DNA of 52,136 nucleotides. Source: Chloroflexota bacterium. Its GTDB lineage: Bacteria; Chloroflexota; Ktedonobacteria; Ktedonobacterales; Ktedonobacteraceae. The notes beneath the pieces are model-generated. The model worked only from the letters and a program-made list of their open reading frames with translations. It was not told where the DNA came from and made no database searches. The stretch is taken from contig CADDYT010000034.1 in assembly GCA_902810755.1 (NCBI GenBank), positions 1 to 52,136 on the forward strand, given 5' to 3'. Position numbers and translations under genes: made by a program. Shown here in pieces: positions 20,150 to 50,930 of this stretch (within the stretch, counting starts at the first letter, position 1; every line of letters starts with the position of its first letter).

Positions 20150-21196
20150 TTATGCAGGTTTCTGTTGTAACAGCAGATGCGCTGCCTGGAAAATATCTTC
20201 TTCTTGCGGTACGGCGCGTTTTTCGAGTTCAACCTGATAGGGGATAGGTATTTCCGCGCCTCCCAGGCGTATGATAGGCGCATCCAGATAATAGAACGCT
20301 TCGCTGGCAGCGATACGAGCGGCAATTTCGCCGCCGAAGCCGCCGGTCAGCACAGCTTCGTGGACAATCAGCACGCGCCCGGTTTTGCGCGCCGAGGCTA
20401 CCAGCGTCTCCTCGTCCAGCGGGCGCAGGGTACGCGGGTCGATCACCTCGGCCTCGATGCCCTCTTTTGCCAGGCGTTCAGCAGCGGCCAGGGCGCGCTG
20501 CACCATGATCGAAAGTGCGATGATGGTCAGGTGCTTGCCTTCCCGCGCCACAGCAGCTTTCCCCAGCGGCGTTTCACAGGCGGCGACAGGCACCATGCCC
20601 GGCACTCTATACAGGGCTTTGTGTTCGAGGAAGATGACAGGATTCGGCTCATGAATGGCCGCCCGCAGCAATCCATAGGCGTCGGCAGGCGTTGAGGGCA
20701 GCGCCACTTTGAGGCCGGGAACGTGGGCGAACCAGGCTTCCAGCGACTGTGAATGCTGCGCCGCCAGGCCAGCCCCTGAGCCGAGCGGGGCGCGAAAGAC
20801 CACCGGCACCTGCGCCTTGCCGCCAAACATGAAACGCAGCTTGGCCCCCTGATTGACAATCTGGTCCATCGCCAGCGTCATGAAATCGCTGAACTGAAAT
20901 TCCGCGACGGGTCGCATGCCGCTCAACGCCGCGCCGATGGCGCAACCGGCAATTGCCTGCTCCGAAATCGGCGTATCGCGCACTCGCTCCTCTCCAAACT
21001 CTTCCAGCAGGCCTTTTGTGACGCCAAACGCTCCGCCATAAATGCCGATATCTTCCCCCATCAGGAAGACGCGAGGGTCGCTCAACATCTCTTCTCGTAA
21101 CGCCCGGCGAATAGCCTCGCCGTAGGTCATCTGCTGTGTGGCCTCGCTGGCCCCTGCAGTAGTGGTGCCGCGAGTTTGTGGTTGAGAAATCGTCAT
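20150..21196 (-). CDS. 2-oxo acid/acetoin dehydrogenase E1 beta subunit
   Basis: The protein has 348 residues and matches the transketolase central and C-terminal domain pattern of E1beta/AcoB. It has [76 protein letters not shown] and a C-terminal [15 protein letters not shown]. The family usually has about 325-345 residues. It starts inside the E1alpha stop (ATGA overlap at 21193-21196) with a GGAAGGAG SD inside the upstream gene, so the two are translationally coupled, as expected for an alpha2beta2 enzyme. It binds the pyrophosphate side of TPP together with E1alpha. Confidence 0.94.
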
Positions 21197-22167
21197 GCGT
21201 ACACTCCTTCCAGCAGGGTTTCAGGGGCGGGATCGGGACTGCTCAGGGCGAATTGATAGGCTTCCTCTACGGCAGCATAAGCTGCGGCTTCTTCCTGTTT
21301 CGCCCCGGCCTGATCCAGTTTGCCCTCAGAGATGAGCAGGTTGGCGAAATACTGAATGGGGTCGCGTTTTTGCCACTCGCGAATCTCGCCGCGGCTGCGA
21401 TAGAGGTTCTGGTCGCTTTTGGCATGCCCCTTATAGCGATAGGTGAGACCCTCGATCAGGCTGGGACCCTGACCGGTGCGGGCGCGCTGTACCGCTGCGG
21501 AGACGGCGGCATAGATGGCCAGCACGTTGTTGCCGTCCACGCGCTCCCCCGGTATGCCATAGGCGGCGGCGCGTTGGGCGACGGTTTCGTTGCGCATGGC
21601 GCGCCGCGTGGACATGGACATGCCGTACTGGTTATTTTCACAGAGGAAGACAACGGGCAAGTCCCAGATCGCCGCCAGATTGATCGACTCGTGGAAGGCC
21701 CCCTCGTTGGCCGCACCGTCGCCAAAGATGCAGAGGCAGATGTTCTCACGACGCTGCATCTTCATGCTCAGACCTACTCCGGTCGCGATGGGCATACCCC
21801 CGGCCACAATGCCGTTGGCCCCCAGGTTGCCCATCTCGACATCAGCAATGTGCATCGAGCCGCCGCGCCCGCGACAATAGCCCGTTTCTTTGCCCAGCAG
21901 TTCGGCCATCATCAGCCTGATGTCCGCGCCTCTGGCGATGCAATGTCCATGCCCGCGATGCGTGCTGGTAATGAAATCACCACTTTTCAAGGCGCTGATC
22001 GCTCCTACGGCGGTTCCTTCCTGCCCGATTGAGAGATGCGTCGTGCCGTGCATTTCGCCGCGCATAAATAGCTCATCAACTTTCTCCTCGAAGGCGCGGA
22101 TGAGATACATGGTACGCAGCATCGAAAGCGACTGAGCAAGAGGCAACTCTGGCGGTTGCTCAAACAT
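21193..22167 (-). CDS. 2-oxo acid/acetoin dehydrogenase E1 alpha subunit
   Basis: The protein has 324 residues and is TPP-dependent. The thiamine diphosphate/Mg motif is [20 protein letters not shown], closing with [26 protein letters not shown] is the version typical of acetoin dehydrogenase AcoA and close relatives, so I favour acetoin-type over pyruvate dehydrogenase, without proof. The ATG follows AGGAG. A consensus promoter (22232-22260) lies 65 bases upstream. First gene of the E1alpha-E1beta-E2 operon, divergent from the CoM cluster; it could supply acetyl-CoA or handle a C4 product of that pathway. Confidence 0.93.
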
Positions 22168-22579: not shown

Positions 22580-23629
22580 ATGAAGATCAGAGGTGAAGAG
22601 GTTCGCCTTCCATGTTCGATGATTGGCGGCTATCCACGTCCGCACTGGCTGCAAGGGCGGGTATTTGGCTCCCTGCACGAGCCACTCTATCGTAGTATGG
22701 ATCTGCGCGTGGCTTATGAAGACGCCGTGCGACTGGCTGCTCAGGATCAGGAGTGGGCGGGTCTCGACATCCTGGCTGACGCACAACAATATTTCCCCTG
22801 GGAGGTTCCGGCATTCCAGCTGGAGCCGATTTTCCACTTCAATACCGAGATGGTCGAGGGCTTCCGCCCCTGGGGGCCTCCTAACTCTATCAAAAAGTAC
22901 GAAAAGTTCTACATGGCCGAGTGCGTTGAGAAGATTCGCTGGGTGCGGCCCATCTTCGAGGGTGTGCTGGTGGCTATGCAGGGCGCGACGAAAAAACCCT
23001 TCAAGATCGGCTGTTTCGGCCCCGGTCAGAACAGCGTGATCGTCTCTGATCGCTACTACAACGATAATGTCGCCCTGGCCATGGATCTGGCTGCCGCCCT
23101 CAACGAAGAATTTCGCTACCTCAAGGAGCGGGGGCTGGAGGCCATACAGATCATCGATGTACTCCCCACCTACACGCAGGATACCTGGCAGATTGACGCC
23201 GTGAACCGCATGCTGGAGGGTCTCGACGATCTCATCTCCATCTGGCACATCTGCTATGGCAGCGTGGACGGCCAGACCGACGTCTGGGAAGACAAAGCGG
23301 AGGAGATGATGGGGATGTTTGAAGGGGCCAACGTGACCGCCATCCACTTTGAGTCGGCGCATCGGGATTTCCGTGAGATGAATGCCTACCGCCGCTTCCC
23401 GCCTGACAAAGTGCTGGGTCTGGGCTTTATTGATGTGAAGGATCCCAATGTTGAGAGGCCGGAGCAGGTCGCGGCCCGTATTCGCAAAGTGCTGGATGCC
23501 GGTATCGTGCCGCCCGAACGCCTGCTGGTCATGCCCGACTGCGGCCTCGGCTACATGAGCCGCAGCGTCGCCGCCGGGAAGCTCAAGGCGATGGGTGAGG
23601 GCGTGCGCATAGTGCGGGAAGAGCTGTAA
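22580..23629 (+). CDS. MetE-like zinc methyltransferase-fold protein, epoxyalkane:CoM transferase homologue (paralogue 1)
   Basis: The protein has 349 residues; the ATG follows GAGGAGG. It has the C-terminal-domain fold of cobalamin-independent methionine synthase: SMIGGYPRP at the start (compare IGSFPQT in MetE), and a complete zinc-site pattern of His223 and Cys225 (WHICYG), Glu258 (HFESAH) and Cys321 (MPDCGLG). Stand-alone MetE-C proteins include epoxyalkane:coenzyme M transferase (XecA/EtnE), which opens epoxides with the CoM thiolate bound to zinc. Context decides: the next genes are a paralogue, two HPCDH-type SDRs, 2-KPCC and CoM biosynthesis. Differences from paralogue 2 in the middle region (residues 65-110) suggest a different substrate. 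A stand-alone methionine synthase is the alternative, less likely here. Confidence 0.75.
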   Translation: MKIRGEEVRLPCSMIGGYPRPHWLQGRVFGSLHEPLYRSMDLRVAYEDAVRLAAQDQEWAGLDILADAQQYFPWEVPAFQLEPIFHFNTEMVEGFRPWGPPNSIKKYEKFYMAECVEKIRWVRPIFEGVLVAMQGATKKPFKIGCFGPGQNSVIVSDRYYNDNVALAMDLAAALNEEFRYLKERGLEAIQIIDVLPTYTQDTWQIDAVNRMLEGLDDLISIWHICYGSVDGQTDVWEDKAEEMMGMFEGANVTAIHFESAHRDFREMNAYRRFPPDKVLGLGFIDVKDPNVERPEQVAARIRKVLDAGIVPPERLLVMPDCGLGYMSRSVAAGKLKAMGEGVRIVREEL

Positions 23630-23744
23630 GCGCAGCCTGTGCCTGAAAGAACGCGCTTTCTTGCACGCTTCTACATTACACAGAAAGGAGGATGTGTTTC
23701 AGGTAGCATCGGCTTATCCCTGGTTCGTTGTTGTGTGGATACTC

Positions 23745-23766
23745 GACAGACGTCGCTGTCTTTTTT
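23745..23766 (+). terminator. Weak hairpin + T6 between the two EaCoMT-like genes
   Basis: GACAG (23745-23749) pairs with CTGTC (23756-23760), directly followed by six T (23761-23766). The stem is only 5 bp, so it could act as a partial terminator that lowers expression of downstream genes, or have no effect. The SD of the next gene follows 10 bases later. Confidence 0.3.
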
Positions 23767-23787
23767 CCTTTGTTTCAGGAGGAATCT

Positions 23788-24918
23788 ATGAAGATTCGAG
23801 GCCAGGAAGTGACCCTGCCAACCAGTATGGTTGGCAATTATCCCAATCCCCGCTGGTGGGACGCCCACTTCGCCCGGCACTTTACCGGCGATCAATTGCC
23901 GCCAGACGCTTTTGATCGCGAGGCATTGGAAGATGTGATTGTCGCTCTTGCCCACGATCAAGAAATGGCGGGGCTCGACATTATTTCCGATGCCCGTGTG
24001 CAGGCCGATGATTATGCTGAACAGGCTGTCTACTACTACTACAAGCGCATGGGCTACGATCTGAAAGGCGGCTATCTCGGCTTCCCCATCTATAGCCGAC
24101 TCCATGCCGGGACGGTGACGCAGGAGATCAAGCGGCGCGGGCAGATGATGGTCGAGCAGACCAGGGCGCTCAAGCGGGCAACGAAGAAGCCAGTTAAAGT
24201 GCAGTATACCGGCATCCAGGTGCTGGCGCAGGCTACCAACGACCTCTATTACAAATCGAGCCGCGATCGTGCTATGGATATCGCCAGAGCCATCAATGAA
24301 GATATCCTGGCCGTGGACGCGCTGGGCGCGGATTTCATCCAGCTTGACGAGTTCACGTGGCCCTATGGGTTTGAGGACTGGGCGATTGAGGCGTTTAACC
24401 GGGCAGTAGAGGGCGTCAAGAACGCGAAGGTTGTCGTCCATGTCTGTTGGGGCAACTGGGGCGGCACCCCTGCTTACATGCCGGATGAGACGGCGCAGCC
24501 CGGCGAAATCTTTGACCTCACGGTCCGCAAGGGTCCGACGCCGGGCGATAGCACCTACGTCATTCCCAGAGCCTATGATGCCAGGATCGATGTGCTGAAC
24601 CTGGAGACCGGCGGGCGCAGACGCGATCTGAGCGGCCTCGGTACCATCCTCCAGCAGCATCCTCTGCCCAAACACGTGCAGTTCTGGGCAGGCGTGATAG
24701 ATGTGAAGAGTACCATCACCGAAACTGCCGAAGAAGTGGCGAACCGCATCCGGCAAGTCTTGCAGTACGTTCCCGCCGATCAACTTGGCCTCACGACCGA
24801 CTGCGGCTTGATCCTGCTCCAACGCTACATCGCCATTGACAAGCTTCATGCCCTGGTCGCCGGTACAGAGATCGTGCGCAAGGAACTGGCCCGCGAGCCT
24901 GCTGCTGCTCCTGCATAG
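23788..24918 (+). CDS. xecA: Epoxyalkane:coenzyme M transferase homologue (paralogue 2)
   Basis: The protein has 376 residues from the ATG at 23788 (AGGAGG seven bases upstream); the longer frame to 23728 has no SD. MetE-C fold: SMVGNYPNPRWW at the start, zinc ligands His218 and Cys220 (HVCWGNWGG), Glu273 (NLETGG) and Cys339 (TTDCGLI). As I recall, the X. autotrophicus enzyme has 377 residues and zinc ligands His218, Cys220 and Cys341, an almost exact coincidence of length and spacing. Predicted reaction: epoxide + CoM to 2-hydroxyalkyl-CoM. It shares MKIRG(E/Q)EV, ATKKP and other blocks with paralogue 1, so the pair arose by duplication. This is the best candidate for the true EaCoMT. Confidence 0.8.
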   Translation: MKIRGQEVTLPTSMVGNYPNPRWWDAHFARHFTGDQLPPDAFDREALEDVIVALAHDQEMAGLDIISDARVQADDYAEQAVYYYYKRMGYDLKGGYLGFPIYSRLHAGTVTQEIKRRGQMMVEQTRALKRATKKPVKVQYTGIQVLAQATNDLYYKSSRDRAMDIARAINEDILAVDALGADFIQLDEFTWPYGFEDWAIEAFNRAVEGVKNAKVVVHVCWGNWGGTPAYMPDETAQPGEIFDLTVRKGPTPGDSTYVIPRAYDARIDVLNLETGGRRRDLSGLGTILQQHPLPKHVQFWAGVIDVKSTITETAEEVANRIRQVLQYVPADQLGLTTDCGLILLQRYIAIDKLHALVAGTEIVRKELAREPAAAPA

Positions 24919-25027
24919 TTCTCGTACACAGGGAACCGCAGCATGTTCATGCCAGAGTAAGCGGAGGGGAACTGGTAGAAATCCTGTCTCTACGGTTTCT
25001 ACCGGCCCCTTCAGTTGGAGGGATACT

Positions 25028-25225
25028 ATGCCCTTTATGTTCCTCAAATGTCCCGAATGCGGCCACGAGTTTCAGGGTTTCGTGCTGGAGGGAACACGCC
25101 CACCACAGGAGTGGGTCTGCTCTCAATGCGGCAGCAGGAAGGCCGAGGTGGCACCTGAGAAAAAGCCGGTGCCGCACCCCTGGGAAAGCGGTCATGGTCA
25201 TGGATTATGTCCCTGTTGCGAGTAA
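25028..25225 (+). CDS. Small zinc-ribbon protein with His/Cys-rich tail
   Basis: 65 residues; the ATG at 25028 follows GGAGGG. Two CxxC pairs (Cys8/Cys11 and Cys30/Cys33) form an FmdB-like zinc ribbon; the C-terminus is HPWESGHGHGLCPCCE, with three His and three Cys. It sits between the zinc-dependent EaCoMT homologue and the first SDR, 9 bases before the latter, so it is part of the operon. The metal-rich tail suggests zinc binding or delivery, or a small subunit or redox role; none is shown. Too short to have drawn attention in ordinary annotation. Confidence 0.75.
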   Translation: MPFMFLKCPECGHEFQGFVLEGTRPPQEWVCSQCGSRKAEVAPEKKPVPHPWESGHGHGLCPCCE

Positions 25226-25234
25226 GGATCGATC

Positions 25235-25993
25235 ATGCGGCTAAAAGACAAGGTGGCAATTATTACCGGAGGCGGCTCCGGCTTTGGCGAGGTGACGGCG
25301 CGCCTCTTTGCGCGTGAGGGCGCGGCGATCATGATCGCCGATATCAATGGCGAGGCCGCGCAGACTGTTGCAGACTCCATTGCCGCTGAAGGCGGGCAGG
25401 CCGCCTGGGCGCGCACCGATGTGACCTCTTCGCCAAGCGTTGAGGCAATGGTGCAGGCGGCGCTGAACCAGTTCGGGCGTGTGGATATCCTCTTTAACAA
25501 CGCGGGCATCGAAGGCTTCGGCACCGTCGTCGACACGGACGAAAACGCCTGGGAGCGTATCTTTGCCGTCCACGTGCGCGGCACCTATCTCTGCTCGAAG
25601 TACACGCTGCCTGCGATGATCGAGGGCGGGCGCGGCGGCTCGGTGGTGAATGTCTCTTCGGTGGCCGGGCTGGTTGGCATCCGCAACATGACCGCTTACA
25701 GTGCGGCCAAAGGGGCCATTCTCAGCATGACCCGCTCTATGGCCGTCGATTTCGCTCAATACGGCGTGCGCGTGAACTGTGTCGCCCCCGGCACCACGAT
25801 GACGCCGATGGGCCAGCGCCTGGTCGAGGGTGATACGCCGGAGCAGCTAGCCCTTCGGATGAGTCGGTATCCGCTCAACCGCTTTGGACGCCCGGAGGAG
25901 ATCGCCAACGCCGTCCTCTTCCTTGCTTCGGATGAAAGCTCATACGCGACGGGTTCCTGCCTTGTCGTCGATGGCGGATTAACGGCTGTCTAG
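25235..25993 (+). CDS. SDR oxidoreductase, (S)-hydroxyalkyl-CoM dehydrogenase-like
   Basis: 252 residues, classical short-chain dehydrogenase: nucleotide motif TGGGSGFG (11-18), NNAG (88-91), catalytic Ser142, Tyr155 and Lys159 (YSAAK). Asp36 after strand 2 (IMIADINGE) indicates NAD rather than NADP. In the Xanthobacter pathway two SDRs oxidise the (R)- and (S)-2-hydroxypropyl-CoM enantiomers; as I recall the S-enzyme holds the sulfonate with Arg211 and Lys214. Here Arg208 and Arg211 (RMSR) form a basic pair with the same spacing in the same region, while the R-type Arg at Tyr-3 is absent (Met152). So S-type specificity is favoured. Many generic SDRs look similar, so context carries much of the weight. 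Confidence 0.7.
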   Translation: MRLKDKVAIITGGGSGFGEVTARLFAREGAAIMIADINGEAAQTVADSIAAEGGQAAWARTDVTSSPSVEAMVQAALNQFGRVDILFNNAGIEGFGTVVDTDENAWERIFAVHVRGTYLCSKYTLPAMIEGGRGGSVVNVSSVAGLVGIRNMTAYSAAKGAILSMTRSMAVDFAQYGVRVNCVAPGTTMTPMGQRLVEGDTPEQLALRMSRYPLNRFGRPEEIANAVLFLASDESSYATGSCLVVDGGLTAV

Positions 25994-26024
25994 GCTGTTT
26001 CTCTCTAAGATAGGGATAGCAGTT

Positions 26025-27443
26025 ATGGAACATTACGGATTATGGATCAACGGCGAAGTCTGGGAGAGCGACCGGCAGCTCGTCGTGACCGAGAAGGCAA
26101 GCGGCGCGCCCTGGGCGACTATCAGTCAGGCCGGGCCGAAAGAGGTGGACGCGGCTGTCAGCGCCGCTGTACAGGCATTTGCGGGCAGGCCGCTGACAGT
26201 CACGCAGCGGTATCATATTTTGATGCGTGCCGCCTCACTCATCCGCGCGCGTCAGCAAGAACTGGCGTTGACGATGGCCTGCGAAGCCGGAAAACCGCTA
26301 CGTGACGCAATGGCCGAAGTCGAGCGGGCAGCAGACACCTTTATCTGGTCGGCGGAAGAGGCAAAGCGTATTCACGGTGAGATGGTGCCGCTCGAGGCCA
26401 CTGTCGGCTCAGAGAACCGGCTGGCCTTCACGCTGCGCGTTCCCGTCGGCGTCGTCTGCGCCATCACGCCCTTCAACTTCCCGATCAATATGGTAGCGCA
26501 CAAGGTTGCGCCTGCGCTGGCGGCTGGCAATGCTGTCGTGCTGAAACCCGCCTCGTATACCCCCATCGTGGCCGCGAAACTATGCGCTATTCTGACTGAG
26601 GCCGGTCTGCCGCCGGGCTGGCTGAATATGGTGGTCGGTCCCGGCGATAGCGTGGGCAATGCCTTGCTCGCCGATTCTCGTATAGGCTTCTACACCTTCA
26701 CCGGCTCGGTTCCTGTCGGCGAGATGCTCAAACGCTCGATCGGCCTGCGCCGTTGCACGCTGGAACTTGGTTCCAACTCGGCGGTGATTGTCCATGATGA
26801 TGCCGACATTGCCACTGCCGCCACGCAGTGCGCCTTAAAGGGCTTCTCTTATGCCGGACAGGTCTGCCTCTCAGTACAGCGTATCCTCGTCCATCAGGCT
26901 GTCGCTGAAGCATTCACGGCTAAACTGGTGAGCGTGGCCCGGAGCCTGCGCGTGGGCGACCCGAAGGAGCAGGATACCGATATCGGCCCGATGATCAGTG
27001 AAGGCGAGGCCAGCCGGGCGCAGTCCTGGATACAGGAAGCCATTGCTCAGGGCGCGTCACTGCTTAGCGGTGGTCGGCGCGACGGCGCGTTCCTGACGCC
27101 GACCGTGCTGGGCAATGTAGAGCCGCATATGCGCGTCGTCTGCCAGGAGACCTTCGCCCCCATTGTGGCGGTGCAGACTTATGAGACGCTCGACGAGGCT
27201 CTGAGCCGCGCCAATGACTCCGAATACGGTTTGCAGGCGGGCATCTTCACTCGCTCGCTCGCCGTTGCCATGATGGCGGCGCGCCGCTTGCAGGTTGGCG
27301 GCGTCATGATTAACGACACCTCGTTCTACCGTGCCGGTCAGATGCCTTATGGCGGCGTCAAGCGCAGCGGCATGGGCCGCGAGGGGCCGCGCTACGCCAT
27401 CGAAGAAATGACGGAGTTACGCCTGGTTGTACTGAACCCGTAG
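26025..27443 (+). CDS. NAD(P)-dependent aldehyde dehydrogenase
   Basis: 472 residues, complete ALDH fold. The cofactor-binding segment is ITPFNFPIN and KPASYTPI, with a Rossmann turn FTGSVPVG; the general base is Glu in LELGSNSAV and the nucleophile Cys in [10 protein letters not shown]; the C-terminal motif is ETFAPIVAV. Length is normal. ELGSNSA in place of the common ELGGKSP is seen in a group of semialdehyde/lactaldehyde-type enzymes. It lies between two SDRs in the CoM operon, so it may oxidise an aldehyde formed from the epoxide or glycol, a step not part of the classic propylene pathway. Substrate unknown. Confidence 0.9.
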
Positions 27444-27466
27444 CAGTGAAAGAAGGTTTCTCGACG

Positions 27467-28225
27467 ATGCGTCTTGCGAACAAAACCGGGTTGGTGACGG
27501 GGGCAGGCTCCGGCATCGGGCGCGCCATCGCCCGCCGCTTCGCCGCCGAAGGAGTCTCGCTTGTCATCAGCGATATCTCTGAGGCTGGTCTGCGGGAGAC
27601 CGCCGCGTTGATTGGCGGCATGGATGGGCAGACGGTCTCCGTCGTGGGTGACGTAGCAGAACGGGCTGATGCGGAGCGCATGGTGCAGGCGGCAGTGAAT
27701 GCCTGGGGGCGACTGGATATCGTGGTGAACAACGCCGGTATTGCCGGTTCGCGCCAGGCCACGCTTGCCCACCTGACGCCGGATGAAGAATGGGATCGCG
27801 TCATCGCCGTCAATGTGACGGGCGTCTTTCGTGTCGCCAGCGCCGCCATTCGCCAGATGCTGGCGCAGGAGCGCGGTGTCATCATCAATATCGCATCCGT
27901 CGCCGGGTTTGTGCCATTTCCGGCCCGCGCCGCTTATGATGCCTCCAAAGGGGCCGTCATTGCCTTCACGCGGGCGCTGGCGCTGGACTATGCTCCCCAT
28001 CATATTCGCGCCAATGCCATCTGCCCCGGCATGGTGGAGACCGAGATGACGCGCTGGCGTTTAGAGATTCCAGATCTGCGCCAGCAGGTGCTGGACATGA
28101 TCCCCTGGAATCGTGTGGGCAAGCCTGAGGACATCGCGGCGGCTGCGGTCTACCTCGCCTCGGACGAAGCCGAGTATATGACCGGCCACATGCTGGTCAT
28201 CGATGGCGGCTGGATGGTCAAGTAG
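27467..28225 (+). CDS. SDR oxidoreductase, (R)-hydroxyalkyl-CoM dehydrogenase-like
   Basis: 252 residues from the ATG at 27467; a GTG at 27446 would add 7 residues. Classical [11 protein letters not shown] (11-18), Asp36, NNAG, Ser144, Tyr157, Lys161 (YDASK). As I recall, the Xanthobacter R-enzyme binds the CoM sulfonate with Arg152 and Arg196, i.e. at positions -3 and +41 from its catalytic Tyr155. Here Arg154 is at Tyr-3 (ARAAY) and Arg198 is at Tyr+41 (TRWRLE): an exact match of both spacings. The S-type pair is absent. This is good, though memory-based, evidence for a CoM-conjugate dehydrogenase of R type. Predicted product: 2-oxoalkyl-CoM, the substrate of the 2-KPCC homologue at 30096. 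Confidence 0.75.
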
Positions 28226-28272
28226 CCTGATGAGAACTCCCGTAGGGGTCTGTATATAAAAGGAATACAAGT

Positions 28273-29220
28273 ATGCCAGTTTTTACTTCAGAACAGAAAC
28301 AGGTTTCGCTGGCTGAGGCGGCAGCTATCGTGCAGGATGGCATGACGGTCGCCGTTGGCGGCGGGCTGTCATGGCGCGAGCCAATGGCGTTGCTGCGCGA
28401 ACTGATCCGGCGGGGGCGGCGCGATTTGCATGTGATAGGCACCGCGCACGGCGTTGACGTGGATCTGCTGTGCGGCGCGGGCGCAGTCAGTATCATCGAA
28501 GAGTCCTATGTCGGCTTTGAGCAGGATTTCGGCATGGCCCCGAACTACCGGCGGGTTTGCCAGGAAGGGCAGGCAAAAGTCCACGATACCTGTTGCCATA
28601 CGCTGCTGCAACAGTTGCGGGCGGCGGAGTATGGCGTGCCGTTTTTGCCGGTGCGCAGCGTGCAGGGAACCGATTTTTTGCAACTGCACCCGGAATACAA
28701 GACAATGACCTGTCCCTTCACCGGCCTGCCGCTTGTCCTGGTGCCTGCCCTCGCCCCTGATGTCGCCATTATTCACGCGCAGTATGGCGATGCGCACGGC
28801 AATCTGAAGATTCTCCCCCCGCTGGTGGCGGATATGCTCTTTATTCGCGCCGCAAAGCATGTCATCGCCACCGTTGAGCAACTGATATCAACAGAAGAAC
28901 TGCAGGCGATGGAGCCGAACGTGCCGTATTTCTGGGTTGAGACCGTCACCGAAGTTCCTTACGGCGCGCATCCCACCTCGTGCTATCCTTTCTATGCCTA
29001 CGATCGCCAGCACCTCGCGCACTACTACCATGCCGCCAGCGCCGGGCGCGAAGCGTTTGCCCGCGAATATCTTGACCCCTATGTTTATGGGCCGACCAGC
29101 CATGAAGAGTATCTCCAGCGTATCGGCGGGGCGGTCAGGCAGCGGGAACTGGAAAGCTGGAAGGAGAGCGCAGATGCCTGGCGGGCGCTGTTTGCCGCGC
29201 CGGAAGGAGCCATTGCATGA
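28273..29220 (+). CDS. CoA-transferase subunit A (family I, GctA-like)
   Basis: 315 residues; the ATG follows AAAGGAAT. The family I CoA-transferase alpha pattern is clear: LAEAAAIVQDGMTVAVGGG, SIIEESYVGFEQDFGMAPNYRR, LPVRSVQGTDF, VPALAPDVAIIHAQYGDAHGNL and ADMLFIRAAKHVIATVE. It is closest in style to glutaconate CoA-transferase/IpdA-type subunits rather than ScoA. It overlaps the beta subunit by ATGA. In the context of the pathway it could activate the beta-keto acid released by the 2-KPCC homologue (acetoacetate in the propylene pathway) with a CoA donor. Another acid is possible. Confidence 0.85.
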   Translation: MPVFTSEQKQVSLAEAAAIVQDGMTVAVGGGLSWREPMALLRELIRRGRRDLHVIGTAHGVDVDLLCGAGAVSIIEESYVGFEQDFGMAPNYRRVCQEGQAKVHDTCCHTLLQQLRAAEYGVPFLPVRSVQGTDFLQLHPEYKTMTCPFTGLPLVLVPALAPDVAIIHAQYGDAHGNLKILPPLVADMLFIRAAKHVIATVEQLISTEELQAMEPNVPYFWVETVTEVPYGAHPTSCYPFYAYDRQHLAHYYHAASAGREAFAREYLDPYVYGPTSHEEYLQRIGGAVRQRELESWKESADAWRALFAAPEGAIA

Positions 29221-30083
29221 ACGAGCAGGACATTGCTTATGCCACGCTACCGGAAGTCATGATCGTTCAGGTGGCGCGCACCATTCGCGACGGCGAACTG
29301 GTTTTTCACGGCTACGGTTCCCCCGTTCCCGCCCTTGCCATGCTCCTGGCGAAACGCACCCACGCGCCGCACATGGTGCATATCGAGGGCGCGACCTACG
29401 GCGTCAACCCGGAGCCGCCGTTTCTGCCGCCAACCTCCAACGACTGGTCGCTCTCACAGGGCAGCGTCCTGGCGATTGGCATTACCGACCTCTTCGATAT
29501 CGCCGCACGCGGTGATATGGGGCGCATGTTCCTCTCCGGCGTGCAGGTGGATCGCTACGGCAATTTGAACGTCACCGCTATTGGCAGCCCGGCTGCGCCG
29601 CGCGTCAAGCTGCCCGGCAGCGGCGGCGGTTGTAACCTCTCCGGCGATGTCCAGCATGTCACGATCTGGACGACCGGGCATCGCGCTTCGCTCAACAAAG
29701 CCGGCAAACGCCAGTATCGTTTTGTGAAGCAGATCGATTTTATCTCGTCCATCGGCCATGTGACCAGAGATGGCAGGCCGCGCAGCGCGCTCGGCCTGCG
29801 CGGCTGCGGCCCGGAGTGGGTCGTGACCGAACTGGGCGTCTTCGATTTCGACCCGCAGACGCACGTGTTACGCCTGCGCAGCCTCTATCCAGATACGACC
29901 GTGCAGGACGTGCTGGACAACACGGAATTTGAGCCGGTCATTGCCCCGGACGTGGGTGTCGCCCCCTTGCCCACGCCCACAGAGGTGGCGCTGATCCGCC
30001 GCTTTGACCCGTTGAACACGCACCAGCGTGAATTTAAGTCAGTCGATGTGTCCCGGCGTTTCCCTCTCCCGGACAATCGCTAG
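29217..30083 (+). CDS. CoA-transferase subunit B (family I, GctB-like)
   Basis: 288 residues, translationally coupled to subunit A (ATGA at 29217-29220). Family features: IRDGELVFHGYGSPVPALAMLLAKRTHAP, a candidate catalytic Glu in MVHIEGATYG, DLFDIAARGDMGRMFLSGVQVDRYGNLN, PGSGGGCNLSGD and FDPQTHVLRLRSLYPDTTVQDVLDNT. The Glu position should be checked by alignment, because some relatives (IpdB type) lack the catalytic residue and are hydrolases instead. Followed after 12 bases by the 2-KPCC homologue, so cotranscribed. Confidence 0.85.
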   Translation: MNEQDIAYATLPEVMIVQVARTIRDGELVFHGYGSPVPALAMLLAKRTHAPHMVHIEGATYGVNPEPPFLPPTSNDWSLSQGSVLAIGITDLFDIAARGDMGRMFLSGVQVDRYGNLNVTAIGSPAAPRVKLPGSGGGCNLSGDVQHVTIWTTGHRASLNKAGKRQYRFVKQIDFISSIGHVTRDGRPRSALGLRGCGPEWVVTELGVFDFDPQTHVLRLRSLYPDTTVQDVLDNTEFEPVIAPDVGVAPLPTPTEVALIRRFDPLNTHQREFKSVDVSRRFPLPDNR

Positions 30084-30095
30084 CAGGAGGTAGCA

Positions 30096-31664
30096 GTGGA
30101 TATCACTTTGACCCCAACGACGAACAAGCAGTGGACCGGTCTGGTTGAAGAGTACATGCAGAAGAGCGAGCCGATCATCAATGTGCATCGCGACGACTCG
30201 CGCAAATTTGATGCCATCTTTATTGGCGGCGGCGCGGGCGGTCGCTTTGGCTCGGGCTATCTGCGCGCAATGGGCGGGCGGCAGCTCATCATTGATCGCT
30301 GGCCCTTCCTGGGCGGTAGTTGCCCGCATCAGGCATGCGTGCCGCACCATCTCTTCTCCGAAGCGGCCCGCGAACTTGACCTCATGCGCTGGTTCTCCGG
30401 TAAGCTCTGGTTCCCTGATGCCAGCCATCTGCGAGCCTCGATTCTGCAAGTGGTTGAACTCTTCAAGGCCGGACGCGGCACTGCTCATGCTTTCATGAAC
30501 TGGCAGTCTAAAGAGCAACTTGACCTCGAATATATCCTCAACGCCTCCGCGACGGTCATTGACGACCACACGGTAGAGGTGGCGGGCGAGCGTTTCCAGG
30601 CCGATAACCTGGTGCTGGGCATCGGGGCCGCGCCGCTGCCGCCGGCTATTCCCGGCATCGACCTGCATGGCGTGTATGACTACTCTTCCTTTATCGAAGA
30701 GCTGGATTTCGAGCCACAACGCTGCGTTATGATCGGCGGCTCGAAGACGGGCATAGAGTACGGCTCGTTCTTCCAGGCCGCGGGCTGCCCGACCACCATT
30801 GTGGCGCGCAAACCGCTCATGCGCACGTCCAGCCTCCACCACGTCGATGAAGACCTGCGCAACTATGTTGTCGATGGGATGCGCAAGCGCGGCATGCAAA
30901 TCATTGAGGGCCACGAGCCGGTGGAGATCAGAGGGAATAGCAACGGGCATGTACAGGCGGTCGTCATTCGCGATATGCAGAGCGGCGAGGAGCAGACGCT
31001 GCCCTGCGATTTCGTCTTCCTGGCAACAGGCGAGCGACCGCGCTCCGATCATTTCCAGCAGGTGCTGGGCGTCGCTGTTGGTGAAAAGGGCGAAATTCTG
31101 GTCGATAAACATATGCGCACCAGCGTTCCGCATGTCTATGCTATTGGTGACCTGATCGGCCCGCCAATGGAGATGTTCAAGGCGCGCAAAAGCGGTGTGA
31201 CCGCCGCCCGCAACATCATGGGCGAGGATGTCGAGCTAGATTGGACAAATTATCCCGACTTCCTGCATTCCACCTATGAAATCAGCTGGGTTGGCCTCTC
31301 AGAAGAGGAGGCCAGGCAGAGCTACGACAATGTGGTCATCATTCAGATGCCGCCCAAAGGCGTCCCGCCGGGCGACATTCCCCTGCCCTGTGCCGAGGGA
31401 ACCATGCTCTACGCCTTCATGTTTCCAGAACTTTCCGGCTTCCTCAAGGCTGTTGTCGATGGGGATAGCCGCAAAGTCCTCGGTTTCCACCACGTTGGCT
31501 ACGGGGCGAAGGACGCTTTCCAGTACCTCGATTACCTGCTGCGCCGCCCGCAGGGCGTCACCATCGATGAGATGGGCAGCATGAACGAGTTATTCCTCAA
31601 CCCTGAACATTTCATCCAGCTCTGTCGCCTGCGGGCCGGTTCGCCCAACCTGCGCGATTTGTAG
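30096..31664 (+). CDS. xecC: 2-oxopropyl-CoM reductase/carboxylase homologue (2-KPCC)
   Basis: 522 residues (the Xanthobacter enzyme, as I recall, has 523); GTG start after GGAGG. FAD/NADPH disulfide oxidoreductase with IGGGAGGRFGSGY, redox cysteines Cys76 and Cys81 (GGSCPHQACVPHH), a second nucleotide motif IGGSKTGIEYG and YAIGDLIGPPMEMFKARKSG. Features separating 2-KPCC from glutathione or lipoamide reductases are present: the usual His-Glu pair is replaced by Phe500 and His505 (FLNPEH; Phe501/His506 in the known enzyme), and the sulfonate-binding Arg50 and Arg364 correspond to Arg56 and Arg365. Long stretches match word for word what I remember of the family (LWFPD, MNWQSKEQL, HVGYGAKDAFQYL). 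Predicted reaction: 2-oxoalkyl-CoM + CO2 + NADPH to beta-keto acid + CoM. Confidence 0.93.
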   Translation: MDITLTPTTNKQWTGLVEEYMQKSEPIINVHRDDSRKFDAIFIGGGAGGRFGSGYLRAMGGRQLIIDRWPFLGGSCPHQACVPHHLFSEAARELDLMRWFSGKLWFPDASHLRASILQVVELFKAGRGTAHAFMNWQSKEQLDLEYILNASATVIDDHTVEVAGERFQADNLVLGIGAAPLPPAIPGIDLHGVYDYSSFIEELDFEPQRCVMIGGSKTGIEYGSFFQAAGCPTTIVARKPLMRTSSLHHVDEDLRNYVVDGMRKRGMQIIEGHEPVEIRGNSNGHVQAVVIRDMQSGEEQTLPCDFVFLATGERPRSDHFQQVLGVAVGEKGEILVDKHMRTSVPHVYAIGDLIGPPMEMFKARKSGVTAARNIMGEDVELDWTNYPDFLHSTYEISWVGLSEEEARQSYDNVVIIQMPPKGVPPGDIPLPCAEGTMLYAFMFPELSGFLKAVVDGDSRKVLGFHHVGYGAKDAFQYLDYLLRRPQGVTIDEMGSMNELFLNPEHFIQLCRLRAGSPNLRDL

Positions 31665-31692: not shown

Positions 31693-32601
31693 ATGCTTGA
31701 ACTTTCGCGAACACAGACATGGGGGTCTGTACAGAATCTCGTTCCCCTGCCATACCGGCGTGTTAGCGTGCAACGCTACGACGGGCCGATGACGGTCGAA
31801 GCCATTTCTCGCCTGCTGCTGAGCCGGGAAGCCTATCGGCGCACAGATTTTATCGTGCTGCGCGGGGCAGGCGAGGAGACCGCCGTTGTGGCGATTACGC
31901 GAGCGGAAAACGAACCGCTGTTTTCACAGATTACCTCGGTTGAGGTGCTGGCATTGCCCGAAACCTGCTTTTTTGCGCACCGACCAGAGGTTGATACGGC
32001 CAATCGCTCGGCGCTGGCGGAGGTGGCGCACGAACTGGGCATCGGGGCGGCTGGCACGCTTGTGGTGCAGGGCCTCTACGACCACGTCAACTTTATTCAC
32101 CATCCTCGCCCGCTGCTCATCCGCGTGGTAGAGGTTGCTCCTCCTGAGCCGCCAAAGCTGTATGGTCTGGCGCGCCAGGTATTGAGCTATGCCGATCTGC
32201 CGCCGATCCGACTGGAACTGGAACGCATCGAGGTGCGCGATCTCGCCGACAGCGTGCGCCCGACCTCTTACCTGGTTCCCTGCCGCTCCGGCGGCCTGGA
32301 TGATCTGCCCGCGCCTGTGCATTTTCTGGATGAACACCCGCAACGCCAGCACTGGACGATGATCGGCTGCGAGCGCAGCCTGCAATTTCACCGCCACTTT
32401 TATGGCGATGAGCCGCCGCGTGTCGAGATGTGTCCGCGCCTGATCGCCGGGAAACGCTCAGAACCGACGCTGCTGAAATGCTGCCTGCTGGAAACGCATA
32501 TCGAAGAGGATGGCGCGATCATGGTTGTTCCCTGGGGAGCGGATCTCGCAATGGTTGAGGCCGCGCTGCGCAAACTTGCCGGGGAGGTCGCATATGTCTG
32601 A
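31693..32601 (+). CDS. Unknown cysteine-rich protein between 2-KPCC and CoM synthesis genes
   Basis: 302 residues; very strong SD (AAGGAGGTGAAAGG). I do not recognise a family. The first 110 residues are an alpha/beta region; the second half is rich in conserved-looking short motifs: YDHVNFIHHPRP, LVPCRSGGLDD, MIGCERSLQFH, EMCPRLIAG, LLKCCLLETHIEE and VVPWGADL. Five Cys and several His in the last 110 residues suggest a metal or Fe-S site or thiol chemistry. The stop overlaps the ComA-type gene by 8 bases, so it is tightly linked to CoM synthesis. The bacterial CoM pathway has five steps while the recognised genes here account for four, so this is a natural candidate for the missing thiolation/reduction partner (XcbA-like). 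Inference only. Confidence 0.75.
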   Translation: MLELSRTQTWGSVQNLVPLPYRRVSVQRYDGPMTVEAISRLLLSREAYRRTDFIVLRGAGEETAVVAITRAENEPLFSQITSVEVLALPETCFFAHRPEVDTANRSALAEVAHELGIGAAGTLVVQGLYDHVNFIHHPRPLLIRVVEVAPPEPPKLYGLARQVLSYADLPPIRLELERIEVRDLADSVRPTSYLVPCRSGGLDDLPAPVHFLDEHPQRQHWTMIGCERSLQFHRHFYGDEPPRVEMCPRLIAGKRSEPTLLKCCLLETHIEEDGAIMVVPWGADLAMVEAALRKLAGEVAYV

Positions 32602-33505
32602 GCGAGCATGGACACAGGTAATCGGTCGCGTGCTGGTGGGGCGCGAACAGCCGCCGCGCAAGAGCGGGTTGACGATGGTCATTGATAAAGGTCACGGTCT
32701 GGCCATGACTGCCGATCTGCTTGAGATGTCTGGCGACCTGATCGATCACTGGAAATGCACCTTTGGCACCTCGGCCTTCGTTCCGGCGGATGTGCTGCGC
32801 CGCAAACTGCTCCATTTGACGGCTCGCGGCATCCTTACCTATCCCGGTGGGACGCTGCTGGAAGTCGCGATTGTCTATGGCAACTGCCGCACCTTTATGC
32901 AGCACGCCCACATGCTGGGTTTTAGTGCAGTAGAGATCTCGGACGGCACCATTCCCCTGCCTCTGCATCGCCGCCGCAACCTGATTCGCTGCGCCATCGA
33001 TCATGGTCTGACGCCAATTACCGAGGTTGGCAAAAAGGACCCGCAGCACCAGCCGGGCGCGCTCGAACTGGCCGAGCAGGCACTGCAGGACCTTGAATGG
33101 GGCGCGCAGTGGGTCACGGTCGAAGCTCGCGAGTCCGGCAAAGGCATCGGCATCTATGACGATCACGGGATGGTGAAGACGGAAGCAGTCGCCGAAATCA
33201 GCGAGCGCATGGGGCCGCTGGTGAATCGCCTGATCTGGGAGGCCCCGCTCAAGAACCAGCAAACCTACCTGATTCAACAATTCGGCATGAATGTCAATCT
33301 TGGCAATATTCCCACCGGCGAAGTGCTGGCCCTTGAAGCCCTGCGCGCTGGTCTGCGCTTCGAAACGTTCTCTCGTGTCGCGGAGGAATTGGAGCGCACA
33401 GGTCAATGGAACCCCGATGCCGTCGAAGAGGTTTCATCTCCTGAATCGCTTCCCGGCAACCCCGGTCTTTTGCACAGTAGCGAACAGGGGGCGGGACAAT
33501 GGTAA
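32594..33505 (+). CDS. comA: Phosphosulfolactate synthase (ComA/XcbB type)
   Basis: 303 residues from the ATG at 32594 (GGGGAGG six bases upstream). It is a (beta/alpha)8 enzyme with the ComA pattern throughout: MVIDKGHGL, KCTFGTSAFVP, YPGGTLLEVAI, GFSAVEISDGTIPLP, ITEVGKKDP, VTVEARESGKGIGIYDDHG, IWEAPLKNQQTYLIQQFG, and NVNLGNIPTGEVLALEALR followed by AGLRFET. It adds sulfite to phosphoenolpyruvate to form phosphosulfolactate, the first step of CoM synthesis in methanogens and in Xanthobacter. In Bacillus a ComA homologue (YitD) serves spore components, but the neighbours here argue for CoM. It has a C-terminal extension of about 35 residues of no known role. Confidence 0.93.
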   Translation: MSERAWTQVIGRVLVGREQPPRKSGLTMVIDKGHGLAMTADLLEMSGDLIDHWKCTFGTSAFVPADVLRRKLLHLTARGILTYPGGTLLEVAIVYGNCRTFMQHAHMLGFSAVEISDGTIPLPLHRRRNLIRCAIDHGLTPITEVGKKDPQHQPGALELAEQALQDLEWGAQWVTVEARESGKGIGIYDDHGMVKTEAVAEISERMGPLVNRLIWEAPLKNQQTYLIQQFGMNVNLGNIPTGEVLALEALRAGLRFETFSRVAEELERTGQWNPDAVEEVSSPESLPGNPGLLHSSEQGAGQW

Positions 33506-35046
33506 TACTGGGCGGAGGCTCGCCATTGTCTGATGGAGGCAAGGGGACGAACTCCCCGATGCCGGGCGTGGGCAGTCGGCTGGCAAGCGGCCCGGCGGCG
33601 GAACTGGTGCAGACAGCTTTCGCGCGCGAACTCGCGGATCAACTGCCGCTCTTCAGAGGCATGAGCCTGGCAGACATTGCCCATACTCTCGTCCTCATAG
33701 AAACAGGCGTGATCCCGTCTGTTGCGGGCGCGTCACTGCTGGAAGCGTTGCTGGCCCTGCACGAGCAGCCCGCCGATTTTGTGCCTGTGCCTGAAAAGGG
33801 CGATCTCTACACCAACCGCGAAGCCTGGTTAGCGACCCACACCTCCGCCGTTGGCTGGCTGGGGGCCGGACGGGCGCGGCGCGAATCAACGACAACCGGT
33901 TTTCGCATCATTCTGCGCTCCCACCTGCTCGCCTTTGCCAACGCGCTGATTAAGACTGGCCTCGCGCTGCTCACGCGAGCCGCCGAATATCAGAATGCGC
34001 TGATGGCCGACTACACCTATTTGCAGCCCGCGCAGCCCACCACCTTCGCCCACTACCTGCTCACCTTTGTCTATCCTCTCCTGCGCGACCTGCAGCGCAT
34101 CCAGGAATTGTATGCGCGCGCCAACCTCAGTCCTGCCGGTTGCGGCAGCGTCAACGGCTCGCGCATCCCGCAGAATCGTCAGCGCCAGGCGGAATTGCTG
34201 GGCTTCGACGGCCTTATCCCGCATGCTCGCGATGCCATGTGGCAGCCAGATGAGGTGATCGAGATGCTCTCCGTCGCCGTCATAGCCCTGGTCAATCTGG
34301 ATCGTCTCGCCGAAGACCTGCAAATCTTTGCCACCGCCGAATTTAACCTGATCGAACTGGCAGACGGCCATTCCCGCGCCAGCGTGATTATGCCGCAGAA
34401 GAAAAATCCCTATGCGCTGAACTATGTGCGCGGCGCGACAAACGAACTCACCGGCATGCTACAATCTGTTGCTACATCCGAGCGCACCCCCTCCGGGCAG
34501 GTGGATAACCGCGTCTTCGCCTATGGCAATGTACCGCGTGCGCTTGAGACTGCCACCGGCGTGGCGATGCTCATGGCCGCTGTCCTGTCCGGCATGCGCT
34601 TCAACGCTGATCTGGCGCAATCGCGGCTGCTCAATGGCTTTGCCGCCGCTACCGATCTGGCTGAGACCATCACGCTCGAAACCGGCCTCGACTTCCGCAG
34701 CGCGCACCGCATCGTCGGATGGCTGGTGCGCGAGGCCGTGCAGGCTAAGCGCAGTATGTGCGACCTCACGCTGACAGACCTGAATGCCGCCGCGCAGGCC
34801 ATGCTGGGCCATTCCCTGACGCTTTCAGAGCAGGCATTTATCGGGGCGCTGAATCCGGCAACGGCGATTGCAGCACGGCGGGATGTTGGCTGCGCCGCTC
34901 CTGAGCCGCTGAACGCCATGCTTACTGAGTGCCGCGCCGCAATAGAGCAGTATGTCGACTGGTGCCAGCAGGCGAGGCAGCGCGTTGTTGCGGCTGAAGA
35001 GCGCCTGTTGCGCCTGGCGGAAAAGCTGTGTGGAGGTGAAGCATGA
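33499..35046 (+). CDS. Aspartase/fumarase-superfamily lyase, XcbC-like (CoM synthesis)
   Basis: 515 residues; argininosuccinate-lyase-like member of the aspartase/fumarase superfamily. The third conserved region, which carries the catalytic Ser, reads ASVIMPQKKNPYALNYVRG; other blocks are YTYLQPAQPTTFAHYLL, SPAGCGSVNGSRIP and the N-terminal DLYTNREAWL. The long N-terminus (about 60 residues) is not typical. Overlaps ComA by 7 bases and the next gene by ATGA. In the bacterial CoM route described for Xanthobacter, two enzymes of this superfamily carry out phosphate elimination from phosphosulfolactate and a later decarboxylation; the order (ComA, lyase, lyase, PLP enzyme) is the same here. It is not a normal arginine-biosynthetic enzyme in this setting. 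Confidence 0.82.
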   Translation: MVILGGGSPLSDGGKGTNSPMPGVGSRLASGPAAELVQTAFARELADQLPLFRGMSLADIAHTLVLIETGVIPSVAGASLLEALLALHEQPADFVPVPEKGDLYTNREAWLATHTSAVGWLGAGRARRESTTTGFRIILRSHLLAFANALIKTGLALLTRAAEYQNALMADYTYLQPAQPTTFAHYLLTFVYPLLRDLQRIQELYARANLSPAGCGSVNGSRIPQNRQRQAELLGFDGLIPHARDAMWQPDEVIEMLSVAVIALVNLDRLAEDLQIFATAEFNLIELADGHSRASVIMPQKKNPYALNYVRGATNELTGMLQSVATSERTPSGQVDNRVFAYGNVPRALETATGVAMLMAAVLSGMRFNADLAQSRLLNGFAAATDLAETITLETGLDFRSAHRIVGWLVREAVQAKRSMCDLTLTDLNAAAQAMLGHSLTLSEQAFIGALNPATAIAARRDVGCAAPEPLNAMLTECRAAIEQYVDWCQQARQRVVAAEERLLRLAEKLCGGEA

Positions 35047-39559: not shown

Positions 39560-39560
39560 T

Positions 39561-40022
39561 ATGGCAAATGCTTTGACCGTCCGGGCAGTCTTGCAGCAGG
39601 GCATGTGCTTTGATGCTGAGACCGGCTCCGGCCATCATCTCCTGCTGGATGCCGCTCCACATAATGGCGGAGCGGATAAAGGGCCGCGCCCGATGGAAAT
39701 GCTGCTGGTGGCCCTGGCAACCTGTGCCGGCATGGATATTCTTTCTATTCTCAGGAAGAAACGCCAGCAGATCAGCGCCTACGAAGTATTGGTGCGTGGC
39801 GAGCGTAGAGAGGAACACCCCAGAATGTTTGTGGACATTACCGTTGAACACGTCTTTAGCGGCCACGCCATTCAAGCCCAGGCGGTAGAGCGTGCCATCG
39901 CACTGACCGAAGAGAAATATTGCGCCGCCAGCGCCATACTCGGTAAAACGGCGAAATTGATTCATACGTTTCGCGTACTGGAAGAGCCGGAGAAAGTTGT
40001 ATTTTTGCACCCATCCCCGTGA
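39561..40022 (+). CDS. OsmC/Ohr family protein
   Basis: 153 residues from the ATG following GAAGGGAAATG; the longer frame overlaps the synthetase and lacks an SD. OsmC-like fold: GADKGPRPMEMLLVALATCAGMDILSILRKKRQ with the conserved Cys of ATCAGMD, and VERAIALTEEKYCAASAIL with the second Cys (EKYCAAS). The two-Cys pair is typical of thiol peroxidases reducing organic hydroperoxides. Last gene of the plus-strand run, 1 base after the synthetase stop. It may protect against peroxides formed by an upstream oxygenase or act in thiol chemistry; unproven. Confidence 0.88.
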   Translation: MANALTVRAVLQQGMCFDAETGSGHHLLLDAAPHNGGADKGPRPMEMLLVALATCAGMDILSILRKKRQQISAYEVLVRGERREEHPRMFVDITVEHVFSGHAIQAQAVERAIALTEEKYCAASAILGKTAKLIHTFRVLEEPEKVVFLHPSP

Positions 40023-44064: not shown

Positions 44065-44192
44065 CGTAAGCGATCCATGGTCAAATACGGGAAGTCGTGG
44101 TGGAGATGAGTTACTCCATCGCGAGCCAGAACGCAACGATGACTGGCGTTCATAACACTCATTTCCATTATAGCTTCCCCTTATGCATAAAT

Positions 44193-46256: not shown

Positions 46257-46275
46257 TGTCTTCTCCTCCTTCTCA

Positions 46276-48851: not shown

Positions 48852-48854
48852 GTG

Positions 48855-50819: not shown

Positions 50820-50930
50820 GTGTCTCTGCCTCCCGGCCATAGGCCAGCTACGTAGAGAGAAAGCGCATTACTCTCAGGGTGCTACAGAGGATGAATCTCA
50901 GGGATATGCTAAGATTAAAATGTAAAAGGC

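Follow-up and report, generated by a model that had tools for sequence, protein, structure and literature searches.

The 52,136-nucleotide contig CADDYT010000034.1 of a Chloroflexota assembly (GCA_902810755.1), which is referred to below as the window, carries between positions 22580 and 39559 of the forward strand a run of 15 co-directional and uninterrupted genes, in which homologs of coenzyme M (CoM)-making and epoxide-using enzymes stand together. In order, they code for two MetE-like zinc proteins (CoMT1 and CoMT2), a small zinc-ribbon-like protein, a short-chain dehydrogenase/reductase (SDR1), an aldehyde dehydrogenase, a second SDR (SDR2), subunits A and B of a CoA-transferase, a homolog of the 2-ketopropyl-CoM oxidoreductase/carboxylase (2-KPCC), the CoM biosynthesis proteins XcbA to XcbE and an acyl-CoA synthetase. 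The intergenic distance is 158 bp at the first join and 109 bp at the second, and ranges from -14 to 47 bp at the remaining twelve, a spacing that fits a single transcription unit. A first-pass annotation had described the part of this run that ends at 31664. The genes it listed are present and uninterrupted where it placed them, but the run continues through XcbA-E and the synthetase to 39559, and these genes had been overlooked, as had a MEDS-domain regulator and a set of E1/E2 genes upstream of the run.

The product of 30096-31664 is a member of the disulfide oxidoreductase superfamily, which aligns with 618 bits to the 2-oxopropyl-CoM reductase of known structure (1mo9), compared to at most 118 bits to solved reductases of other kinds in the PDB. 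It is 55% identical to the enzyme of Xanthobacter autotrophicus Py2 and 61-67% to those of Nocardioides JS614 and Mycolicibacterium chubuense NBB4, giving a range of 55-67% to four plasmid records with known clusters, against less than 30% to MerA and other reductases among the matches listed. In an alignment of 23 proteins the Py2 positions R56, C82, H84, C87, H137, M140, R365, H506 and Q509 are kept throughout and F501 in 22, in every case including the window protein, in which the equivalents are R50, C76, H78, C81, H131, M134, R364, F500, H505 and Q508. Of these we take C82 and C87 to be the redox cysteines, R56 and R365 the sulfonate arginines, and H84, F501 and H506 active-site residues. 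In a tree of 81 rows the 79 carboxylase-type rows, including the window, are split with support 100/100 from two other reductases, which are distant outgroups on long branches with no named function, not known to be MerA or lipoamide dehydrogenase; the window pairs with a row from Ktedonobacterales (L005; 100/70). The earlier call of a 2-oxopropyl-CoM reductase/carboxylase is thus upheld by score, residues and tree placement alike, and by score the protein does not group with mercuric, lipoamide or glutathione reductases. Its membership in the carboxylase group of the CoM pathway is supported by these comparisons, and the carboxylation of 2-ketopropyl-CoM is predicted from it. Given its superfamily, the protein might alternatively be a non-carboxylating disulfide or thioether reductase in an operon that only recycles CoM. 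However, the retention of F501, H506, H84 and both sulfonate arginines, in the roles we presume for them, the margin of 618 over 118 bits and the 100/100 split from the two other-reductase rows make this very improbable. Divergent relatives of the carboxylase (39-47% identity) were also observed at L066, L071 and L073, in metagenome-assembled genomes (MAGs) titled Peptococcaceae, Syntrophaceae and Deltaproteobacteria, with no Xcb or epoxyalkane:CoM transferase (EaCoMT) matches within the stretches examined there.

Comparative data come from 84 loci collected via the carboxylase, which were grouped by record title and place in the tree into 26 Pseudomonadota, 36 actinomycete-type and 9 Acidimicrobiia-type loci; the 13 left out of these groups include L009, which is titled Pseudomonadota and has a carboxylase at 67% identity. 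CoMT2 (23788-24918; 376 aa; PF01717) is 74% identical to the 2-hydroxypropyl-CoM lyase (XecA) of Py2 and 46% to the EtnE-type protein of NBB4, and is placed in the XecA clade, within a 48-row clade holding the Py2 and NBB4 rows (support 98/94; the outgroup is one E. coli MetE row on a long branch). CoMT1 (22580-23629; 349 aa; PF01717, 58.6 bits) is about 30% identical to XecA and to EtnE, and forms a separate clade of 16 rows (100/99). Hence, of the two EaCoMT homologs initially proposed, CoMT2 can be retained as such while CoMT1 represents an uncharacterized family outside the XecA/EtnE clade; the 23788 protein groups with XecA rather than with the E. coli MetE. The zinc ligands of the latter (H, C, E, C) are conserved at all four positions in the 15 CoMT1 rows and the 46 CoMT2 rows compared, and positions 433 and 484, which we take to belong to the homocysteine site of MetE, are altered in both. 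CoMT2 is followed by the cysteine-rich zinc-ribbon-like protein (25028-25225; 65 aa), with a weak match to PF09723 (25.3 bits, below the cut-off of 34.4) and 50% identity over 54 aa to Xaut_4866. Homologs of this protein follow XecA in Py2 and occur in 24 of the 26 Pseudomonadota loci, mostly beside an EaCoMT.

Of the two SDRs, SDR2 (27467-28225) has its best match in the R-hydroxypropyl-CoM dehydrogenase (2cfc; 218.6 bits, with the runner-up 38 bits lower at 180.2) and keeps the arginines R152 and R196, in agreement with the (R)-type assignment made earlier. SDR1 (25235-25993), which is 46% identical to the second of the SDRs that follow the carboxylase in Py2, scores 219.7 bits to the S-hydroxypropyl-CoM dehydrogenase (4gh5/4itu) versus 220.1 to a different oxidoreductase, 4dqx; it keeps R211 and has an arginine in place of K214, in a numbering from which the structure chains are offset by 14, consistent with a tag. 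Presumably R152 and R196 are the sulfonate-site positions of the R-specific enzyme, and R211 and K214 those of the S-specific one.

The five CoM biosynthesis genes are contiguous, and each scores above its curated NCBIfam cut-off: XcbA (31693-32601; NF052538, 458.5 bits against 150; also PF24830), XcbB/ComA phosphosulfolactate synthase (32594-33505; via the ComA model TIGR03849, 303.1 against 280; related to 1qwg), XcbC (33499-35046; NF052535, 671.7 against 575), XcbD (35043-36416; NF052536, 686.7 against 600) and XcbE (36403-37419; NF052537, 464.6 against 450). Among 400 sampled Chloroflexota genomes the XcbC model is matched at E<=1e-80 in seven, and above the cut-off in one, the genome that carries L005 (G001). 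G181 and G232 score 489 and 439 bits and have Xcb neighbors; their XcbA-E runs (L097 and L099) are accompanied by no carboxylase or EaCoMT-type matches in the stretches fetched, and a search of both genomes did not find a carboxylase of the window family (best scores 87 and 100 bits), so that their CoM is possibly made for another use. The remaining four matches, near 300 bits and without Xcb neighbors, are likely ArgH-like. Taken by itself, XcbC failed to indicate CoM synthesis in the actinobacterial class of genome G403, in which 42 of 249 genomes match at E<=1e-100, near 400 bits. At the 14 of these 42 loci inspected besides that of G403 itself (L131-L144), Xcb genes other than XcbC are absent over a distance of about 1.5 kb, and these matches probably represent ArgH paralogs, or else a scattered pathway.

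Three further activities are built into the run. The aldehyde dehydrogenase (26025-27443; PF00171, 517 bits; NF040648, 490 bits, below the cut-off of 650) is non-acylating by similarity and resembles lactaldehyde and succinate-semialdehyde dehydrogenases, a likeness that suits malonate semialdehyde as a predicted substrate. At a threshold of at least 80 bits this type is found in three of the 84 loci, namely the two from Ktedonobacterales and L012, where it lies in a run with an EaCoMT, a synthetase, a CoA-transferase and an SDR1. That it belongs to the same type as the aldehyde dehydrogenases of the JS614 and NBB4 etn clusters was considered and ruled out (best local match 29% over 215 residues, E 2e-5). 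CoA-transferase subunits A (28273-29220; PF01144) and B (29217-30083; PF01144) are 51-57% and 46-48% identical to the respective cluster genes of JS614 and NBB4. The NDP-forming acyl-CoA synthetase (37412-39559; NF045494, NF045493 and TIGR02717 at 492, 468 and 431 bits, all below cut-offs) is 38-48% identical to its JS614/NBB4 counterparts and 82% to that of L005. The claim of a new architecture, made on first inspection for the aldehyde dehydrogenase and the GctAB-type CoA-transferase together, holds for the former only: the CoA-transferase is common in actinobacterial and proteobacterial clusters, being already present in those of JS614, NBB4, methanotrophs and betaproteobacteria, and it accompanies a synthetase and Xcb genes in the published methanotroph (PMC11507031) and mycobacterial (PMC8727900) clusters. 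What is new is thus the lineage, the type of aldehyde dehydrogenase within the run and an insert with CoMT1 and E1/E2 genes (see below), and not the CoA-transferase or the synthetase.

Taken together, these homologies make it quite likely that the operon enables its host to synthesize CoM and, with it, to carboxylate short-chain epoxides, of three and likely also of two carbons, by which small toxic epoxides and CO2 are predicted to be converted to ordinary acids. XcbA-E would build CoM from phosphoenolpyruvate and sulfite, and CoMT2 would use the zinc-bound CoM thiolate to open the epoxide. SDR1 and SDR2 would then oxidize the S and R 2-hydroxyalkyl-CoM, respectively, to 2-oxoalkyl-CoM, from which the 30096-31664 enzyme would form the product by reductive cleavage of the thioether and addition of CO2. 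This product would be acetoacetate in the case of propylene oxide and, following the published ethene proposal, malonate semialdehyde in the case of ethylene oxide. Malonate might then be formed from malonate semialdehyde by the aldehyde dehydrogenase, and acetoacetyl-CoA or malonyl-CoA would be the products of the CoA-transferase or the synthetase. The introduction of PMC8727900 outlines such a route for ethene, from malonate semialdehyde via malonate to malonyl-CoA, and the paper's proposal continues to acetyl-CoA via a reductive decarboxylase resembling CoA-disulfide reductases.

Several observations weigh against this proposal. SDR1 scores equally to the S-specific dehydrogenase and to another oxidoreductase (4dqx). 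No clear gene for the reductive decarboxylase is present, as the FAD oxidoreductase of the JS614 type is unmatched in the L005 block and no second such gene occurs among the window open reading frames (ORFs) scanned. The window-type aldehyde dehydrogenase is found in none of the 26 Pseudomonadota loci, which include methanotroph clusters of the ethylene type, and because those clusters do without it a C2 route is possible in its absence. PMC6440738 describes the CoA-transferase and synthetase as not belonging to propylene metabolism. Finally, a source of the epoxide is wanting: no monooxygenase was recognized among the scanned window ORFs, and no match to a soluble diiron monooxygenase (SDIMO) or copper membrane monooxygenase (CuMMO) was obtained in two Ktedonobacterales MAGs, which may be incomplete; searches aimed at P450 or flavin enzymes were not made. 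The CuMMO search was positive in a methanotroph control genome, whereas the PF02332 search matched no control and its repeat with the SDIMO alpha protein of Py2 matched one of five records, Py2 itself. For want of an epoxide-making enzyme, whether among these ORFs or, as SDIMO or CuMMO, in the two MAGs, the description of the pathway as complete in the first-pass annotation was too strong.

Some of these features could also be accommodated by a route confined to propylene oxide, as in Py2, which ends at acetoacetate and in which the aldehyde dehydrogenase serves otherwise. The presence of both R- and S-type SDRs, which are needed for a chiral epoxide but not for ethylene oxide, would be accounted for in this way; of 17 methanotroph loci, 15 have only an SDR labeled SDR1 by best match and two (L033 and L035) only SDR2, with none having both. 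The greater closeness of CoMT2 to XecA than to EtnE points in the same direction. Nevertheless, the aldehyde dehydrogenase gene is flanked by those of the SDRs and retained in both MAGs, and PMC6440738 assigns the CoA-transferase and synthetase genes to the ethylene branch and describes them as absent from the vicinity of propylene genes, so that we regard a pathway for C3 substrates alone as possible but on the whole unlikely. A more serious contender, if still somewhat less likely than not, is that the operon clears epoxides arising from co-oxidation or from outside, with no growth on alkenes, as has been argued for Methylohalobius crimeensis. That organism has a similar cluster without an alkene monooxygenase, according to passages of PMC11507031, and the two MAGs likewise gave no SDIMO or CuMMO; yet the contig with a monooxygenase may simply be missing from MAGs, and the acyl-CoA-forming genes imply a feed of carbon into central metabolism, though they are found in M. 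crimeensis too.

The pathway proposed for the window can be compared with four kinds of known systems. On plasmid pXAUT01 of Py2 (L001) a MEDS-type regulator, XecA, the small zinc-ribbon-like gene, the carboxylase, R- and S-type SDRs and XcbA-E are likewise combined in one stretch; in this record the matches to the XcbA coding region (21296-22140) are split over two frames, and the region lacks annotation as a single gene. Unlike in the window, an SDIMO monooxygenase is encoded nearby, the carboxylase is the one 55% identical, the CoA-transferase, synthetase, window-type aldehyde dehydrogenase and E1/E2 genes are unmatched, and CoMT1 matches only XecA itself. The etn clusters of JS614 and NBB4 (L002-L004) are comparable in their carboxylase at 61-67% identity, two-subunit CoA-transferase, NDP-forming acyl-CoA synthetase, SDRs, Xcb genes and MEDS proteins, but they are organized in several divergent transcription units, have another type of aldehyde dehydrogenase and an EtnE only 46-50% identical to CoMT2, and possess an FAD oxidoreductase beside the SDR that has no counterpart among the scanned window ORFs. 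The nearest architecture is seen in operons of Pseudomonadota MAGs, namely L036 (Rhodocyclaceae), L039 (Rhodoferax), L049 (Hyphomicrobiales) and L060 (Betaproteobacteria), which combine an EaCoMT, the zinc ribbon (undetected in L039), the carboxylase, SDR(s), CoA-transferase A and B, XcbA-E and the synthetase in one run. In these, however, the carboxylase (51-55% identity) precedes the SDRs, whereas in the window it follows the CoA-transferase, and both the window-type aldehyde dehydrogenase and CoMT1 are lacking. The epoxyethane cluster of M. crimeensis, as described in passages of PMC11507031, shares etnE, an SDR, a glutaconate-type CoA-transferase, an acyl-CoA synthetase, CoM biosynthesis genes, a MEDS regulator and the lack of an alkene monooxygenase, but it names one SDR, has a sulfoacetaldehyde dehydrogenase without sequence similarity in place of XcbA, and belongs to a methanotroph of another phylum. 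According to the same source, the best BLAST matches of genes in this cluster include some from Chloroflexota. Among the open-access papers listed, no report of CoM-dependent epoxide carboxylation in Chloroflexota was found, and the passage retrieved for Ktedonobacter together with CoM concerns the methyl-CoM reductase.

The contig can be assigned by protein similarity to Ktedonobacterales, in line with the Ktedonobacteria-like origin suspected earlier: a protein encoded in the flank (3613-5598), the single flank gene compared with whole genomes, is 77% identical to one from the Ktedonobacterales MAG clean17, and the cluster genes reach 72-89% in this MAG. On its contig (L005) the regulator is joined by every operon gene except CoMT1, 14 of 15 in all, and the gene order is unchanged. 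In a second MAG, clean319, one contig has the regulator, E2, E1 beta, E1 alpha, CoMT1, CoMT2 and the zinc ribbon, and another (L068) runs from SDR1 through the start of the carboxylase; Xcb genes were seen on neither. The regulator (17940-18728, forward strand; PF14417, 136.7 bits; PF12728) combines a helix-turn-helix with a MEDS domain, is 78% and 82% identical to its counterparts in the two MAGs and 37% to Xaut_4864, which adjoins XecA in Py2, and would likely sense the substrate. When 22 window genes outside the operon were compared with the MAG stretches, matches were confined to the regulator, the three E genes and an OsmC-like gene, though the MAG contig flanks are short; since the other genes were unmatched, the region from 17.9 to 40.0 kb appears to behave as a conserved block. 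The OsmC-like gene (39462-40022, forward strand; PF02566; 73% in L102) is the last that this block has in common with the L005 contig, and since its ORF as listed overlaps the preceding gene, translation probably begins downstream of 39462.

Within this block the genes differ in their affinities. Among loci with a match, median identities to the Pseudomonadota versus the actinomycete-type group are 72 versus 48% for CoMT2, 62 versus 45% for XcbA, 55 versus 38% for XcbB, 49 versus 38% for XcbC and 60 versus 54% for CoA-transferase A, whereas for the carboxylase the pattern is reversed (52 versus 63%); SDR1 (46 versus 46%) and SDR2 (41 versus 46%) are little informative. As the position of the carboxylase gene is also shifted, this reversal suggests that the gene was replaced, with trees covering two of the gene families.

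Between the regulator and CoMT2 lies a four-gene insert that is unmatched in the L005 block. It consists of CoMT1 and, on the reverse strand, an E2-like dihydrolipoamide acyltransferase (18742-20109; TIGR01349, 312.7 bits, below the cut-off of 445; 69% in L122), the E1 beta subunit of a 2-oxoacid dehydrogenase-like complex (20150-21196; NF006667, 400.9 bits, above the cut-off of 321; 86% in L122) and its partner E1 alpha (21193-22167; TIGR03182, 369.2 bits, below the cut-off of 393.85), whose best solved relative is the pyruvate dehydrogenase (PDH) E1 alpha 1ni4. CoMT1 homologs of at least 50% identity occur in seven of the 84 loci, in six of which (L012, L023, L025, L028, L029 and L064) E1 alpha and E1 beta adjoin them; in the seventh, L019, no E1 genes lie beside CoMT1 within the stretch examined. 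Conversely, E1 genes without CoMT1 are seen at L022, L030 and L031, where the contigs end, and at L069. The pairing thus recurs at carboxylase loci in Actinomycetota, but because the loci were collected via the carboxylase the link of CoMT1 with the latter is not independent. A protein search recovered 374 relatives of CoMT1 at E<=1e-20, of which most of the best 120 show 54-60% identity, and divergent ones (34-40%) are present in L008, L011 and L045. Genome sampling gave a mixed picture. In the class of G405 (296 genomes) CoMT1-type proteins (36-37%) were found in two genomes, both among the ten, G405 included, with XcbC-type matches (hypergeometric 0.001, kinship ignored). In the class of G403 (249 genomes) two also have them, G403 itself, with XcbC and XcbD, and G875, whose lack of an XcbC match counts against a strict link to CoM synthesis. 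One of the 400 Chloroflexota genomes, clean319, has a CoMT1-type protein. The CoMT1 residues K287, R328 and K334 recur unchanged in all 46 CoMT2 rows but not in the single MetE row; being common to CoMT1 and CoMT2 and not to MetE, they are candidate CoM-binding residues as judged from this one outgroup. That the E1 genes form a dedicated subfamily could not be shown, as E1 alpha scores 190-260 bits (tblastn) to its cluster homologs, near the 221 bits (phmmer) to human PDH E1 alpha. CoMT1 with E1/E2 is a separate add-on to the operon. How a CoM-thioether enzyme might act with E1/E2 is a matter of speculation. One version, which we consider rather improbable, is a pathway with two entries, in which carboxylation of C2 and C3 epoxides, including the dehydrogenation of malonate semialdehyde to malonate, is supplemented by an undescribed CoMT1 branch whose thiamine-dependent E1/E2 would cleave the 2-oxoalkyl intermediate to acyl-CoA without carboxylation.

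Downstream of the block, the reverse strand codes between 40528 and 50840 for a thiolase, a PaaK-like CoA ligase and acetophenone-carboxylase-like ApcE, ApcD, ApcC, ApcB and ApcA. ApcD and ApcC score 991 and 1084 bits, with all Apc-like matches below curated cut-offs, and the set represents a second, differently built group of ketone-carboxylase genes beside the CoM-type one. This adjacency of ApcA-E-like genes, CoA ligase and thiolase might suggest that the operon acts on bulkier epoxides, for instance those derived from styrene, isoprene or butadiene, with the genes at 43126-50840 handling related keto acids. However, save for a PaaK-like match in L018, these adjacent genes have no match of at least 80 bits in the 84 loci and none in the L005 contig, and the active-site residues of the carboxylase match those of Py2, which renders such a substrate decidedly improbable. 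As part of the pathway itself the Apc-like genes were considered and left aside, since they are not conserved alongside it.

If the proposed function is correct, CoM synthesis and epoxide carboxylation would occur together in Chloroflexota, whereas this pathway has so far been studied in other bacterial groups. Moreover, a single operon, equipped with its own dedicated aldehyde dehydrogenase, would then cover the greater part of the steps proposed for the unfinished route for ethene and vinyl chloride, which would make the unsettled downstream steps testable with a single set of proteins. The pairing of CoMT1 with E1/E2, in turn, hints at an unexplored enzyme family that occurs in two phyla and is likely linked to CoM.

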